A DNA stretch of 64,000 nucleotides from Citrus sinensis (Eukaryota; Streptophyta; Magnoliopsida; Sapindales; Rutaceae). Numbering within the stretch: the stretch's first letter is position 1; every line of letters starts with the position of its first letter. The DNA lies in the NCBI RefSeq assembly GCF_022201045.2, contig NC_068559.1, positions 18,347,501 through 18,411,500 of the forward strand, read 5' to 3'. Of this stretch, positions 8,205 to 24,165 are shown in pieces. Below the pieces are notes generated by a model. It saw only the letters and a list, made by a program, of their open reading frames with translations. It made no database searches and was not told the origin of the DNA. The position numbers and the translations under genes are program-made.

Positions 8205-10363
8205 CGTCTGCAGAGGATGTTCCTACCACAAGTCCAATAAGAAGAATTATTCCCCAGCGTCAAAATAGAGGTGTCCCTAAACCCATATATGAGCCTGACT
8301 TCTCTAGTAGAGTCAAATACCCTATGAGTCATTTTGTGTCTAACTATCGCTTATCAGAATCAAATCAGTCATTTGTGAATCAATTATCTACTGTATTTAT
8401 TCCTAACAGTGTACAGGAAGCCTTAAAAGACCCAAAGTGGAAAGCGGCTATGAATGACGAAATAAGATCTCTTCAGAAAAATCAAACATGGGGACTAGTT
8501 GATCTTCCACAAGGAAAGAAACCAGTGGGTGGCCGATGGATCTACACTATAAATTACAAAGCAGATGGCTCTATTGAATAATACAAAGCAAGACTCGTAG
8601 CTAAGGGTTACACCTAGACATACGGGATAGATTATACCGATACGTTTGCACCGGTAGCAAAAATTAATATTATTCGTATCTTATTATCATTAGCAGTCAA
8701 CTTAGATTGCCCAGTGCAACAGTTCGATTTAAAGAATGCTTTCCTCCATGGAGACCTGTCTAAAGAAATTTATATGGATCTGCCACCAGGATGCAGTGGA
8801 CCAGAACGACTCAATCAGAAAGTATGCAAATTGAAGAAATCATTGTACGGGTTGAAGCAATCTCCAAGAACATGGTTCAGGAAATTCACAAAGGCTATGG
8901 TTCTTTTTGAGTATAACCAAAGCAATTCAGATAATACCTTGTTCATTAAAAAACGACAAGGTAAAATCATTGCCCTTATTGTCTATGTGGATAATATGGT
9001 AGTTACAGGCAATGACGAGGAAGAAAGAGGGGCTCTTCAAAAGTACTTGTTGAGAGAGTTTGAGATGAAGGATTTAGGAGCCTTAAAATATTTTCTTGGA
9101 ATTGAGGTTTCTCGATCTAAGGGAGGAATCTTTCTGTCTCAAAGGAAATATGCCTTAGATCTATTGCACGAAACGGGAATGACAGCTTGTCAGCCTATTG
9201 ACACCCCAATAGAAGAAGGACTGAAGTTTTGTATTACCTCAGACCAAGTTCTAATAGACAAAGGAAGATATCAAATTCTGATTGGAAGATTGATGTACTT
9301 GTCCCACACAAGGCCAGATCTTCCTTATGCATTGAGTGTTGTAAGTCAGTTTATGCATAATCCCAGAGAACAACACATGAAAGTAGTAATGCGGATCCTG
9401 AGGTACCTGAAGACAAATCTAGGAAAAGGAATCATATTTTCCAAAAATGAGGATTACAGCAACATAGAAGTTTATATTGATGTAGATTGGGCCGGGTCAG
9501 TTAGTGATAGACGCTCTACTTCAGGATACTTTACCTTTGTGGGAGGCAACCTTGTCACATGGAGAAGCAAGAAACAACATGTCATTGCCCGTTTGAGCGC
9601 TGAAGCAGAATATCGAGTCATGGCCCTTGGGGTATGTGAAGGGCTATGGATAAGCTTTATCTTAAACAATTTGGGCTATCCATCACAACAACTAATACAA
9701 CTATACTGTGACAACAAAGCTGCACGAGATATTGCTCATAACCCAGTTCAACACGATCGAACAAAACATGTCGAGGTAGATAGATTTTTCATCAAGGAGA
9801 AATTAGATGAAAAAATCTTAGAACTGTCGAAAATTCGATCAGAAGATCAACTTGCAGATATTTTAACGAAGGCCATTTCAAGCAGGACATTTACAAAACT
9901 CCTAGACAAGCTGGGTATGCAAGACATCTATGCACCAGCTTGAGGGGGAGTGTTGAGAATGTCAAATAAAACGGCATTGAAGGAAGTTTTCAAAGACATA
10001 ATCCGCACTTATCAAAGGGATAATTTGCACTTGTCAAAGACACGATCCACGCCGATCAGATTGACACATTTCCTTCCGTATTTACATATGTAATCTTTGA
10101 AAAAATATAACCTCTGCATCTATAAATAACTCTTAGTGTATAATGTTTTATTTAAGAAATGAAAACAAGTTTCTTTAGAAATATCTTTGGATCATAGCCA
10201 TGCTTGCTGTCAGATTAAGTTGTTTATCTTAGGAAGGTATTTATATAAGAGCAAGGGAAGCTGTGTTGGCTTTAGGGAGAAGAAATTTCTGTGTCTTTTA
10301 CCTTGTAGACTTGAGAAATATTGTTACAACTATTACATTACTTGTCTGGACAAGTTCCCAACA
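8205..10363 (+). mobile_element. Ty1-copia retrotransposon relic (RT-RNase H part plus 3' LTR)
   Basis: A partial, broken fossil with a few breaks. Visible parts in order are the linker before the reverse transcriptase, reverse transcriptase (AFLHGDLSKEIYM, then YVDNMVVTGND in place of the usual YVDD-type box), RNase H (DWAGSVSDRRSTSGY, SAEAEYR, DNKAA), a purine-rich tract GAGGGGGAG and the 3' LTR. The gag, protease and integrase parts and the 5' LTR are not present in the window. The RT-RNase H region is well preserved, suggesting modest age. LTR-LTR dating is not possible with only one LTR. Confidence 0.9.
9951..10363 (+). repeat. 3' LTR of the copia relic
   Basis: 413 bases bounded by a 5-bp inverted terminal repeat, TGTTG at the start and CAACA at the end. 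It follows directly after the polypurine tract. TATAAATA at about 10120 is a plausible LTR promoter element. Confidence 0.75.
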
Positions 10364-10593: not shown

Positions 10594-12250
10594 TCATTCC
10601 AATGATGGAAATGGATTAAGCCTAGTGAGCGGGACACAAATTAACGGACAAGCCCTCGGAAGAGTTAGGCCAGGGGCTTCTTCCATGTCAACTGTAGCGC
10701 CATCTCCTCCATTAACCTTCCAATCAAAGCACTGAATCATAGTAGCAAGGGTTGTCTGAACCATATGTAGTGCCAAAGAGATTCCGGGGCAGGCTCTTCT
10801 TCCACTACCAAATGGAATATAATGATAATGCTGGCCCCTGACATCCAACTGGGTCTTTCCATCTTCACCAATGAACCTTTCAGGGTGGAATTCAAGTGGC
10901 TTTTCCCAGTGGTTCGGGTCCCTGCCTATTGCCCACACATTAATGAACACTCTGGTCTTTGCCGGAATCTCATAGCCATTGATGGTACAGCTTTCAATTG
11001 ACTCTCTCACGATCATTGGGCCAGTGGGGTGAAGCCGAAGTGTCTCCTTTACTATGGCTTGAAAGTAAGGGAGGTTGCTAATATCTGATTCGTCTACTAA
11101 TCTGTTTTTTCCGACTACAACGTCAATCTCTCCTCTTGCTTTATTCATGATATCTGGGTGATTAATTAGTTCCGCCAGCGCCCATTCTATAGTAACAGCA
11201 GTTGTATCCATGCCAGCTGAAAACATATCCTGTGCAATGAAAAAATAATTATTATATTTTCATCTCGTGATTATAGTTCTGCTAGTAGTGAATCAGGGAA
11301 ATTTTGGATAATAATAAGTTCACGCAGAGGTGCCAAAGACTATTTACCAGAATGAAGGCCTTTATGTTTTCCCTCGTCAACTTAACTTCTGAGCTCTCAT
11401 CTTCTAATATAGTTAGTAGAATGTCAAGTAAATCCTTTGGTGCATCATCTCCACTAGTTTCCTTATTAAGCTTCCTTGTTTCTTCATGCTCTTTTATAAT
11501 TCTCTCCATCATTGCATCAAATGTTTTACGAGCTTCATTGGTCTTTTTGCCGAACCCCTGCAAGTCTAAGTTCTTACAGAACCAAAAACAATCAGCCAGA
11601 TTAAATTTACCACAAAGCTGTAATATAGATTGCACCAACTCCCTCACTTCATCGGCTTCATTGTCAGAACATCTTTGACTCATAGTCATTCTTGACATTA
11701 TGTGATTTGTTAACCGGTTGATCTCTAATCCAACATCAACCGCCTCTTTAGCATTTGCTTTTGTTAGCACCATCTGTATAAACCGTCTTATCTCTTCTGA
11801 CCGGACTGGAAGGAGCTGGTTCAGTGTTCTTGCACCAAGAAGTTCAGACATACATAACTTCTTCATGAACTTCCAATAAGGTCCGTAAGGAGTAAAGATG
11901 AAACCAGCTGAACCATATGTAAGGTAGTCAACAGCAAGCATCTTTGGACGGCTGCTGAAAGCGTTTTCGTGGGTTTTGAGTAACTCTTTTGCTATTTCTG
12001 AGGAGCAAGCAACAACACAGGGGACTGATCCAAGGAAGAAATGAATCAAAGGTCCATAGCGGCTTGAAAGTTTGTAAATGGCTTAGTGAGGAATTGGAGC
12101 AAGAAGATGAAGATGTCCAATGATTGGCAGTGCGGTTGGGCTTGGTGGAAGTCGAGACTGTATCCTGGTTCTTCTGAAGATCGCTTGTACCACGAGCAAG
12201 GAAACTAGACAAATAATGAAAGGTAAAAAGAAACCCTGCAAATCAGCCAT
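10594..12250 (-). pseudogene. CYP93A-like P450 copy 3, premature stop at codon 56
   Basis: Exon 1 is 12250-11348 and exon 2 is 11229-10594, phase-0 intron, 511 sense codons plus one internal stop. The reading frame begins MADLQGFFLPFII, passes PPSP and [10 protein letters not shown], then codon 56 is TAA (12085-12083). The intact copy 1 has CAA (Gln, in PHQALHKL) at this place, so one C-to-T change explains it. Downstream the frame is open to the end: [12 protein letters not shown]-helix [25 protein letters not shown], ending NPFPSLE. An in-frame Met at 12049 (MIHFFLGSV) could restart translation, but the product would lack anchor and hinge. Confidence 0.85.
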
Positions 12251-14469: not shown

Positions 14470-16148
14470 TCAGATTGATGGGAATGGACTGAGCCTAGCC
14501 ACTGGAGTACAGACTAGGGAATGAGCCCTGGGAAGAGTGAGTCCAGGACCCTCTTCCATGTCAACAGCTCCATTCCCTCCATCACCAACTTTCAATTCAA
14601 AACACTGAATTATAGCAGCAAGTGTGGTGGGAACAAACTGTAATGCCAGAGTAGCTCCAGGGCAGCTTCTTCTTCCACTCCCAAATGGAATCATATGAAA
14701 GTACTGTCCCCTGACATCCAAAAACTGGCTCTTTGCGCTCCACTCCTTGCTTAGAAACCTCTCCGGCCTGAACTCAAGTGGTTTCTCCCAATGGTTGGGG
14801 TCCCTTCCGAGGGACCACAAGTTAACAAACAGCCTGGTCTTTGCTGGAATCCTGTAATCAGCAATTGTACAGTCTTCGGATGACTCTCTCACGACTAACG
14901 GTCCAGTTGGGTGAAGTCTTAGTATCTCTTTCACCACGGCTTGCATATAGGGAAGGCTAGGAATGTCTGATTCCTCCACAATTCTACTTTTGCCAACAAC
15001 AGAATCAATCTCTTGTCTTGCTTTCTCCATCACTTCCGGTTTGTTAATTAGCTCTGCTAGTCCCCATTCTACTGTAATTGAAGACGTATCAGTTCCAGCC
15101 CCAAAAATATTCTGTTAAAACACAAGAAATTATTCAAATGTTAATATCACTAACATGCCAAATTCGTATAGAATTTAATGATTTTGTGTCACGTGTGCAT
15201 TTATAACAGCGTACGATTAAAATTTAACATTACCATGACGAAGGCTTTAATGTTTTCTCTAGTCAATCTCATCTCCGCATTCTCATCTTCATAAATATCC
15301 AACAAAATATCTAGCAAATCCTTGACAATTTCACCTTCGCCATCACCACTCTCCTTCCTCTTCATCCTCTCATCTTCATGCTCCTTGATGATCCTCTCCA
15401 TCATAACATCATACCTGTCGCGAGCATCCTTAAGCTGCTTCTTTAACCCCAGCTGCAAGTCAAAATGCTTGAACAACCAGATGGTATCCGAAAGATTGAA
15501 CTTGGCTCCAAGCACATTCAACTCCTTCACCAACTTCCTCACTTCACCAGCTTCATCTTCACTATCAGAACACCTCTGCCCTAAGGTCATCCTCGATATT
15601 ACATTATTTGTCAACCTCATAAGCTCCCCTCCAAAGTTCACGGCCTCTCCAAGCTCAGCTTTCTTCAGCATTAGCCTTAAAAACCGCTTGGTTTCTTCTT
15701 CTCTAATGGGTCGGAGCTGGTCCAGGGTCCTTCCGCCGAGAAGCTCAGTCATGCAGAGCTTCTTGATGAACTTCCAGTAAGGGCCATAATGCACGGTGGC
15801 GAAATCAGATGAGCCATACGTGATGTAATCAAGATTGGCCGTTTTGGGCCTGTTCATGAAAATTGATTCGTTGGTTTTGAGAAATTCTTTGGCCATTTCA
15901 GGGGAGGACGCAAGCACGCAGGGCTTTGAGCCGATGAAGAAGTGGACTAAGGGGCCATTGCGGGTTGAAAGATTGTGAAAGGCTTTGGGGAGGACTGGAC
16001 CGAGGAGGTGCATGTGTCCTATGATTGGTAACCGGCGTGGGCTCGGCGGGAGGCGAGCCCTGGTTTGAGTTTTGGCTAAGATGGCTCGAACCAAGATGAT
16101 GGAGGCTACACAGATGAGGACAAGTACAGCATCTTGCATGCCAGCCAT
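14470..16148 (-). CDS. CYP93: Cytochrome P450, CYP93A-like (intact copy 4)
   Basis: Exons 16148-15234 and 15111-14470, phase-0 intron, 518 aa. It is the most diverged member of the array. Visible parts: N-terminal anchor ([18 protein letters not shown]), hinge [23 protein letters not shown]-helix AGTDTS (310-315), ExxR as KEILR (367-370), PERF (421-424), haem loop [10 protein letters not shown] with Cys about 455, and the conserved tail [15 protein letters not shown]. An ER-bound monooxygenase is expected; the substrate is unknown. An extra stretch after PERF ([10 protein letters not shown]) is longer than in the other copies. All motifs needed for catalysis are present. Confidence 0.9.
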
Positions 16149-16481
16149 GGCTCAAAAATGCCAAAAAAAAAAAAGAAAGAAAGAAATTGTAGCTAAGATA
16201 TAAAGTTGAGCTTGCTATGTGTTTAAATAACAATAGAGATGCATATTTTAGAATAATAATTACTTTTTTCAAGTTCTTTTAATTATTTATTCATGCAACC
16301 ATTCAAAACTTAGCCTAAAATGTAAGTTTTAGAAAAGTTGTTTCTTATGCCTGTGGTGGGTACTTGGCTTCATTTAAGAATAATTATAATGTTTTATGAT
16401 AATTGGACTATAACTATTTCATGTAGAACAAGTTATTTCCACCTTAAAATGTAACATGGAACACCAAAGTTCAAATTATAA
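16149..16481. other. Upstream region of P450 copy 4
   Basis: Contains a purine-rich leader (16162-16187) and a weak minus-strand TATA-like TTTATATC at about 16198. No other feature seen. Confidence 0.4.
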
Positions 16482-18255: not shown

Positions 18256-18834
18256 TAGAGTGCTGCTAAACGTCATGAATGTTAAGAGAACCCCAAGAGA
18301 AACAAACATTTTTCATTAAGAATGAAAAATGAGTAATGCCCTTGGCCCTACATGAAAAAGCAAACGCATTAAATATTAATTTTTCATTCTTCTTTTTCAC
18401 AACTCTTTTATAAAATATTCAACAAAAAGTAAGTAAGAGCCCACATGAAAGACAAAAAGCAATTCAAAAAAGAATTGTGAAAAAGAAAAAAAAATTAATA
18501 TTTAATACGCTTGTTTTTTCACTTATTGACAGCACGTCCAATTTTCAGTTCTCTCTAAGTTCTCTCAACCTTCCCGACGTTTAACATTTTCCTTTAACAT
18601 ATTGCCTCTCCTTGACGAGAGAACAAATGAATTAATTTTTTATTTTTTTAATTTTTTAAATAATATTTAACATTTTCCCTCTCCCTAACCAGAGAACAAA
18701 TGAATTAATTTTTTACTATTTTTTAATTTTTTAAATAATAAAACGGATGAACAAAGTAGGCACAAAAACAGCAGCACATGCTGCTGTTTCTGCCATCCCT
18801 CTCTCATCTCTCCCACCATTTAGCACTGCTCTTA
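18256..18834. mobile_element. Candidate MITE with inner hairpin
   Basis: The ends are imperfect inverted repeats: TAGAGTGCTGCTAAA at the left, and on the right TTTAGCACTGCTCTTA, whose complement is TAAGAGCAGTGCTAAA. A second inverted pair, TAAACGTC and GACGTTTA, lies inside. The centre (about 18367-18510) is a long AT-rich foldback with arms ATTAAATATTAATTTTTC and its complement. The right half holds a tandem duplication of about 72 bp (18597-18740, repeated GAGAACAAATGAATTAATTT) and a small perfect palindrome, AACAGCAGCA-CA-TGCTGCTGTT. The target duplication is uncertain. Confidence 0.5.
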
Positions 18835-20380
18835 AAATATTATCTTAGTTTGTACATTTAAGGAACTAAAAAAGTACAAGATTTTGAATTAGTAGTAACA
18901 CAATGCTTGTTCAATCAGTTGATTATAAAATCTGCTACAACTGTTCAAACAATATATCCTATCAGGCTATCCCTATCTCAATAATGAGTGTGATAACAAA
19001 ACAAATAACAATAGATGAAACGGATACAATCATAAAAATACAAAGTAATCCACCGTCTATACAGTCAAATATATTATGGATACAAGTACTCATGTAGGAA
19101 GTAATCAATAACCTGTAAATAAAAGACAATATATAAAGAATAAGGAGTGAGTAGAATGGCACACATCAAGGAACACAAACTTTTGTTAAAGGTACTTATC
19201 ATTGTATCAGCGTCCAATCAAATCATAAAAACAGACAGACCACAGTTAATAAGATGGCAAATGCTAAGTTACACCACTCACATGAACAGTACGTGAGTCA
19301 CACACCACACACTATTCAAGTGAGTAGATATAAATTACATTAAATTTAACTTAAGAGCTCCCAACTAATAAGATTTCATACAAGTAAGAATGAGGATAAT
19401 GTCATTGCATTGCATTTCATACAGATGTAATACCCATTATTTTTCATTATTTGACTTTTTACTATTTTATTTTATTTTAAAATAAATTTACCTTTAAAAT
19501 ATTAATAAATCCAAGTGTAGTTAATTTAACCCACTTTAAATTTATCAATATTTAAAAAATAAATTTATTTAAAAATAAAAATAAAAACTGACCAAGGCCA
19601 TTCACACATTGTAGTTCAAAATAAATGAATTCCCTCACTAGACAAGATCACCATCAGAATGGAAACTTTCTTCTCATCCACAGCAAATGAATGCCGTGTA
19701 GGAAGGTGTCCTAAGATTTTTCCTCATTTCATCACATGATGACACAGTTTATAAACTGTAATAACCCTCTGGCCATTAAAAACTGAGAACAAATTACAGA
19801 ATTAATGCATTGGTTACAAAGACATTTCATCTGATTAACACTTATCCAAATGTCAATTCTATTAACAAAATTCAAGTAAACATGGAATTTCAAAAGATAG
19901 ATAGAACTAGCTAACATGGTTATAGATGTTGTTATATTCCTATTAACTAAATCTACCTATCTTTAGATAACCAAAGTCTAAATGAATTTTAGAGCAACGT
20001 GTGTCCTAAACAAAAGAGCACCAATAGATTTCAAAAATACATTAAATTTGTACACCAATGAAAAATGATAATCTCACAGCTTTATTCGACATGCCATCTC
20101 ATCACCAACCAGAAATCATGGCAAAATTTTGCAAAAATATATAATTTTAGTCTTCAGGAATAGTGGATACAATTATCAATGAAGGAGCAAAAACTGAAAA
20201 GCAGATTCAGAAGCAAATACTTAAAGCTTCATTTGATAATGAATATCTCAGATCAAGTGTTGGATTATAAGATTGTAGCTTCATCCTCATCCACAAAAGC
20301 ATAATTGTAATTAAATTAAGACAAAATCGAGATGGTCATAATTTTTTAAAAAAGAAAAAAAGTGGTAAAATCAAAAGTAA
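18835..20380. other. AT-rich intergenic DNA
   Basis: No gene, RNA or clear element recognised. The short frames at 18903-19162 and 19732-19917 are featureless. Confidence 0.5.
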
Positions 20381-20519
20381 AGAAGATTACTCAGTGGTGG
20401 CAATAAAAGTCATAGGTTCGATTCTGCCAGCCAATTTCTTCAATAAATTTCGGAAGAGGGAGCTGTGAATCCTCATCGTAATCCCTTCTTTACCTAATTT
20501 TTCCCCTAGTAAAATATTT
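20381..20519 (+). repeat. Candidate tRNA-derived SINE
   Basis: Box A-like TTACTCAGTGGTGG at about 20389 and box B GGTTCGATTCTGCC at about 20414 have tRNA-like spacing and are followed by an A-rich tail near 20510-20530. The rest does not fold as a tRNA. No target duplication was found. Confidence 0.4.
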
Positions 20520-20561: not shown

Positions 20562-20664
20562 GATCGCTCAGTTCAGCGGGGTTGTCGACACGCAAAGTTC
20601 TCGAAAAGAGAAGCCTGCATTCCGGTCTGTTGAGCTTGAATTTTACTGAGTCATCACCGCGATC
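20562..20664 (-). ncRNA. Box C/D snoRNA (2'-O-methylation guide for 25S rRNA)
   Basis: Read on the minus strand, the 103-nt RNA has a 6-bp terminal stem (GATCGC, 20664-20659; GCGATC, 20567-20562), box C GTGATGA (20657-20651) directly inside it, and box D CTGA (20571-20568) directly before the 3' stem. Two antisense elements are visible. TCAAGCTCAACAG in the 5' half complements 13 nt, CTGTTGAGCTTGA, of plant 25S rRNA. CCCCGCTGA, one nucleotide before box D, complements TCAGCGGGG. From memory of the rRNA, these two sites lie about a dozen bases apart in the same domain. The D+5 rule places one methylation at the G of AATCAGCG. D' is not canonical (perhaps CAGA), so I leave the other site open. 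It would act in the nucleolus with fibrillarin and NOP56/58. It has its own upstream TATA box and telobox rather than a host intron. Confidence 0.82.
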
Positions 20665-20873
20665 TTTTTTTATTTTTTTAAATCGTGTAGTTGATTGATA
20701 ATTCAATTTTAGTGAAACGAGTTTGAAAAAAACTGGACAATACCAAAATAATAATAATAATTTAACATGAAAAACGAAACAGAGAGAGCAATGAATGATA
20801 TGAAACCGTGAACTTGATTGATGGAGGAGAGGGAAAACTGAGGCGACTACAGAAGGGTGGGGGGTGTTATGAA

Positions 20874-20881
20874 TTTATATA
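20874..20881 (-). promoter_or_regulatory. TATA box of the snoRNA gene
   Basis: TATATAAA on the minus strand, 16 bp downstream of a telobox palindrome. The predicted start near 20845 leaves a leader of about 180 nt before the mature snoRNA. Telobox plus TATA is the common promoter of independently transcribed plant snoRNA genes. Confidence 0.65.
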
Positions 20882-20896
20882 GGAGTGCGATGTATG

Positions 20897-20910
20897 AAAC
20901 CCTAGGGTTT
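20897..20910. promoter_or_regulatory. Palindromic telobox
   Basis: AAACCCTAGGGTTT contains the telobox AAACCCTA on both strands. The motif is typical of ribosomal-protein, translation-factor and snoRNA promoters in plants. It is placed correctly for the minus-strand snoRNA gene. Confidence 0.7.
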
Positions 20911-23626: not shown

Positions 23627-24165
23627 CTAACCGCTAGGGATGGCAAATTGCGGGCTTGGGCCGGGCTTTTCAAAGCCCAGGCCCAAGCCCACATTAGTTA
23701 AACGATGTCCAAGCCCTTCAAAAGCCCGGCCGAACTCGGGCCGGGCTTAGACGGGTCTGGGCCGGGCTCGGGCTTTTTAAATTAATTATAAAATATTTTT
23801 TAAATTAAGAAAAATATTTAAATTAAAGATAATAATATAATATATAAATAGAATAATAGTCAAATACATTAAATATTAGCAATACAACCTAATAAAATAA
23901 CAAATACTAATATAAAAAATTAAACTAATTTAATATTTTGATTTTTTTTTATTTAAATTAAATTTATTTTTTATTCATAAATTTAGAAAGCCTGGACCAA
24001 GTTCGGGTTTTTTTGCTAAGCCCTTGTCCAGGCCCAACATATGCGGGCTTCATAATTTTTAGGCCCATATCCAGGCCCACCCCATGCGGGCCGGACCCGC
24101 GGGCCTGAGCTGGGCTTGCCCGGACCTGGGCCGGCCCGGGCTTTTTTGCCACCCCTACTAACCGC
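23627..24165. mobile_element. hAT-like non-autonomous element 1
   Basis: The element is 23635-24157 (523 bp) with inverted ends TAGGGATGGCAA and TTGCCACCCCTA. It is flanked by a perfect 8-bp target duplication CTAACCGC (23627-23634 and 24158-24165). GC-rich ends built of GGGCCGGGC and GGGCCCA words surround an AT-rich core. The 80-codon minus-strand frame inside is a by-product of the GC-rich end. Confidence 0.88.

Follow-up and report, generated by a model that had tools for sequence, protein, structure and literature searches.

A box C/D snoRNA gene on the minus strand of a 64,000-nucleotide stretch of the Citrus sinensis genome (the window; positions are counted from its first letter) very probably heads a small polycistronic snoRNA unit in this plant nuclear genome and represents a counterpart of Arabidopsis SnoR29 that guides neighbouring 25S rRNA sites. 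The gene belongs to the snoZ107_R87 family (Rfam RF00360) and leads a row of four minus-strand C/D snoRNA genes within 1,018 bases, all of which exceed their gathering scores. Its two guides are complementary to eukaryotic 25S rRNA in the register of published plant sites. On these grounds, transcription of the row as one unit, processing of the RNAs, and methylation would be expected in Citrus sinensis. The gene is real but not new, as the dual guide, its targets, and the tandem mark have already been published.

Anatomy and family of the first gene

A cmscan search of the 64 kb window places the gene above the curated threshold for family membership, with a score of 94.3 bits (gathering 50, E 1.4e-19) over model positions 1-117 of 117. 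In the gene, a RUGAUGA box C and a CUGA box D are joined by a 6-bp stem (Table 1). The sequence-only reading had described the terminal stem and both boxes as perfectly placed, and all of them have been found on the minus strand, with 6 of 6 stem positions paired. The end-to-end Rfam match contradicts its expectation that automated annotation would leave the stretch empty.

Table 1. Features of the snoRNA gene row and its upstream region in window coordinates.
Feature	Position	Strand	Remark
Palindromic telobox AAACCCTAGGGTTT	20897..20910	.	expected 0.02 per window at <=1 mismatch
TATA box TATATAA	20875..20881	-	217 nt upstream of first snoRNA nucleotide
Box C/D snoRNA gene snoZ107_R87 (RF00360)	20562..20664	-	full-length Rfam covariance-model match
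Terminal stem, 5' arm GATCGC	20659..20664	-	pairs with 20562-20567, 6/6
Box C GTGATGA	20651..20657	-	read in sequence
D' guide TCAAGCTCAACAG	20627..20639	-	13 Watson-Crick pairs to 25S CTGTTGAGCTTGA
Degenerate box D' CGGA	20621..20624	-	guide register onto published sites
Possible box C' TGTCGA	20585..20590	-	weak, 2 mismatches
D guide CCCCGCTGA	20573..20581	-	9 Watson-Crick pairs to 25S TCAGCGGGG
Box D CTGA	20568..20571	-	read in sequence
Terminal stem, 3' arm GCGATC	20562..20567	-	pairs with 20659-20664
Box C/D snoRNA gene snoR30 (RF00046)	20387..20486	-	80.0 bits, gathering 60, E 1.9e-16
Box C/D snoRNA gene snoR31 (RF01288)	20201..20293	-	85.4 bits, gathering 44, E 7e-14
Box C/D snoRNA gene snoR31_Z110_Z27 (RF00353)	19647..19743	-	49.8 bits, gathering 45, E 2e-4

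The internal boxes are less regular. Box D' is degenerate, and in the scanned part of the D'-to-D interval TGTCGA is the sole box C' candidate at two or fewer mismatches. These features could be taken as signs of a decayed, silent snoRNA gene copy, which we consider very improbable, since neither guide, nor box C or D, nor the 6-bp stem is damaged. Furthermore, of 32,870 first-look candidates in the 300 Mb genome, 48 were scored and this one alone matched, so that its copy number of at least one is a lower bound, and box D' of Arabidopsis SnoR29.2 has also been described as degenerate (PMC8053127).

Taken one at a time, the signals are close to chance levels. The window contains 6 13-mers complementary to a 1,750-base 25S piece; 60 first-order Markov windows gave 6.65 on average. 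Lenient C/D candidates number 60, compared with a mean of 44.4 (10 such windows), and strict candidates 3, compared with 1.2 (20 such windows). The fold of the snoRNA is not unusually stable (z -0.72). It is the combination of signals, together with the RF00360 match and the families linked to it, that carries the case. The near-chance levels of the individual signals are what a chance resemblance in AT-rich intergenic DNA would produce. The probability of such a resemblance is vanishingly small, as it is refuted by the RF00360 E-value together with three more family matches on the same strand within 1,018 bases. On the minus strand at 34285-34170 there is also a strict C/D-like candidate that no Rfam family matches, with 1.2 expected by chance per window.

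The row of four genes and its upstream motifs

The description of the gene as unlinked does not hold, as it heads four C/D snoRNA genes on the same strand, separated by gaps of 75, 93, and 457 nt. Such a tandem arrangement on one strand is that of a plant polycistronic snoRNA unit. The snoR30 and snoR31 families each have at least one match in the genome, and the 461-base sequence separating the third gene from the fourth occurs there a single time. No fifth snoRNA has been found: between 21100 and 18001 on the minus strand, every one of 7 lenient C/D pairings uses a box D of the four matched genes, and a permissive Rfam search turned up nothing else convincing among its 13 matches, of which 9 scored below gathering. 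A literature search at the level of article text found no paper showing the four-gene order, and none of the names and positions looked for occurs in PMC8351944. The order may aid the comparative annotation of plant snoRNAs.

An independent promoter with a TATA box and a palindromic telobox had been claimed upstream, and both motifs are present, at 20881-20875 and 20910-20897, respectively. TATATAA lies just downstream of AAACCCTAGGGTTT, and a telobox and TATA box upstream of the genes are expected of a plant polycistronic snoRNA unit. The single telobox is not enriched, with 2 exact matches to AAACCCTA in the window vs 2.69 expected; these two matches are the two halves of the palindrome. The palindrome itself is rare, occurring at 9 places in the genome vs 1 for a reversed-pattern control. 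Its use as a general snoRNA-promoter mark is unsupported, as Rfam matches were found at 0 of the 8 other loci (~1.5 kb on each side). The Site II element expected of such units is lacking, as there is no TGGGCY motif between 18444 and 23656, the nearest being at 18438-18443 and 23657-23662. Teloboxes with Site II elements above a TATA box have been described for plant snoRNA clusters, and the Site II element has been described as highly enriched in their promoters; a rice locus carrying just one of the two motifs has also been reported (PMC4660826). In the window, 10 of the 35 TGGGCY (Site II-like) matches fall within 476 bases (23657-24132), possibly the promoter of another gene.

In the proposed mechanism, RNA polymerase II would start below the telobox/TATA promoter and produce a single precursor, about 1.2 kb or longer, carrying the four C/D snoRNAs. 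Cutting and trimming that halt at each snoRNP would then free the mature RNAs. The position of the fourth gene, 457 nt past the third, counts against a single unit, so this gene may form a separate one. This distance and the promoter motifs immediately upstream of the first gene would also suit a snoRNA gene transcribed alone from the telobox promoter, with the downstream genes under promoters of their own, in line with the "unlinked" description. We regard this arrangement as improbable, since snoR30 follows on the same strand after just 75 nt and snoR31 after another gap of 93 nt, and since the only exact AAACCCTA matches of the window belong to the first-gene palindrome. Even if transcribed alone, the gene would still not be unlinked. 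The polycistronic unit is the preferred reading.

Downstream of the row, two adjoining cytochrome P450 genes have been observed as open frames on the minus strand (10594-12082 and 14470-16151), with Pfam p450 confirmed at 10594-11259 and 15201-16151. A reverse transcriptase (RVT_2) frame of a Copia-type retroelement lies on the plus strand at 8618-9943.

Guides and predicted 25S sites

A pattern built solely from both guide words matched one eukaryotic 25S rRNA, in which the target words are 10 nt apart. The pattern has 0 matches in the 300 Mb genome assembly, where the plant's own 25S was not found, 0 matches in a set of viral contigs, and 1 match in a set of genomic contigs. The matched contig (L003) is filed as part of a bacterial MAG; its positions 1-1948 hold the end of a eukaryotic 25S rDNA followed by GGGGTTT-type repeats, and this rDNA is contamination. 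The comparisons with 25S refer to this eukaryotic contaminant and not to the plant's own rRNA. An 89-base 25S query yields just one 55-base fragment in the genome, 87% identical and apparently a decayed copy. L006, L007, and L008, the genome's best three matches to U2 snRNA, look degraded, and a 24-base U2 pattern has 0 matches there at one or fewer mismatches.

The two antisense elements of 13 and 9 nt in the sequence-only reading have both been found, at 20639-20627 and 20581-20573, and its estimate that their targets are about a dozen bases apart was near the observed gap. Against this 25S, which is not that of the plant, 9 pairs begin 1 nt before box D and 13 begin 2 nt before box D'. With the 10 nt between the duplexes, the two target words span 32 nt. 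Position 5 of the D guide falls on the first G of TCAGCGGGG. The predicted sites are spaced 0, +18, and +19 (G, G, U) in the 25S reference, and this predicted spacing agrees with Arabidopsis 25S G2392, G2410, and U2411, which have been assigned to SnoR29 with support from mutants (PMC8053127). Box D' has been taken as CGGA because guide positions 5 and 6 then land on G2410 and U2411 as published. CAGA (20629-20626) was rejected as an alternative box D', since it would shift the site by 5 nt in the 3' direction from the published position; the position that it implies is absent from the available portions of the plant site tables of PMC8053127 and PMC11542601.

The mature 103-nt RNA is predicted to be bound by the C/D core proteins with fibrillarin. 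Through its 9 pairs, the D guide would direct 2'-O-methylation of the first G in 25S UCAGCGGGG, while the 13-pair D' guide, beside the degenerate D' box, would act in the same way on the G located 18 nt further downstream, probably along with the U that follows it. The earlier claim named a single methylated G; the registers give two Gs, to which the assignments of PMC8053127 add the adjacent U. Overall, the sequence-only reading described the boxes, the guides, and the 25S sites soundly.

Several reports bear on these sites. In the SnoR29.2 mutant, both canonical and non-canonical sites are lowered, and tandem targeting has been reported for four Arabidopsis snoRNAs, SnoR29 and SnoR10 among them (PMC8053127). 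In tomato and tobacco, the equivalents of the SnoR29 sites carry methylation (PMC11542601). Contrary to PMC8053127, Gm2410 is marked in PMC11542601 as being without an identified C/D snoRNA. The SnoR29 FISH signal in Arabidopsis is nucleolar (PMC7464842).

In the fourth gene, a 12-nt guide CTTAGGACACCT pairs with 25S AGGTGTCCTAAG; in the snoR31 gene, all Watson-Crick runs to the same 25S reference are shorter than 9. We place E. coli G2251 at the second position of the P-loop GGGG. If the G at this position corresponds to Arabidopsis G2620 and no indel intervenes in L003, the D' box CCTA of the fourth gene points at U2651 and G2652, the SnoR10 sites. Arabidopsis G2620 has been equated with E. 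coli G2251 (PMC11542601). A second RF00353 copy with a canonical D' box CTGA and the same register is found on contig C2 (12710974-12711066; L019 3975-4067), where it sits 48 nt after a snoR32_R81 gene. Judging from these guide registers, the row probably includes a SnoR10 counterpart as well as that of SnoR29.

Comparison with known systems

The locus resembles the plant polycistronic snoRNA clusters (PMC4660826, PMC5122169) in its same-strand row of C/D genes below a TATA box and telobox, and differs from the telobox/Site II clusters in the lack of TGGGCY around the row.

Yeast snR190, fission yeast snR107, and human SNORD12 each have a guide to the root-helix stretch of 25S domain V to which the D guide is complementary (PMC8536666, PMC11971394). 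However, the site of these RNAs is yeast G2395, which corresponds by offset to Arabidopsis G2396, 4 nt from the site predicted here. Arabidopsis G2396 has been assigned to SnoR28 in plant site tables (PMC8053127, PMC11542601). The root-helix guide precedes D' in snR190 and D in the Citrus gene, and the second guide of snR190 pairs with domain I (PMC8536666, PMC11971394). Orthology to snR190/SNORD12 was rejected on register, as guide position 5 lands 4 nt short of Arabidopsis G2396, on a G upstream of it. Simultaneous binding of both sites by SnoR29 has been considered possible (PMC8053127). We think it unlikely that the Citrus RNA, on top of directing methylation and by binding both 25S sites at once, would act as a folding clamp on the domain V root and as a plant stand-in for the snR190 chaperone.

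The locus adds one plant example to a well-described snoRNA family and is scientifically routine. From its sequence, the first gene appears to be the counterpart of Arabidopsis SnoR29, with which it shares the same two 25S target sites, the tandem U, and the degenerate D' box.
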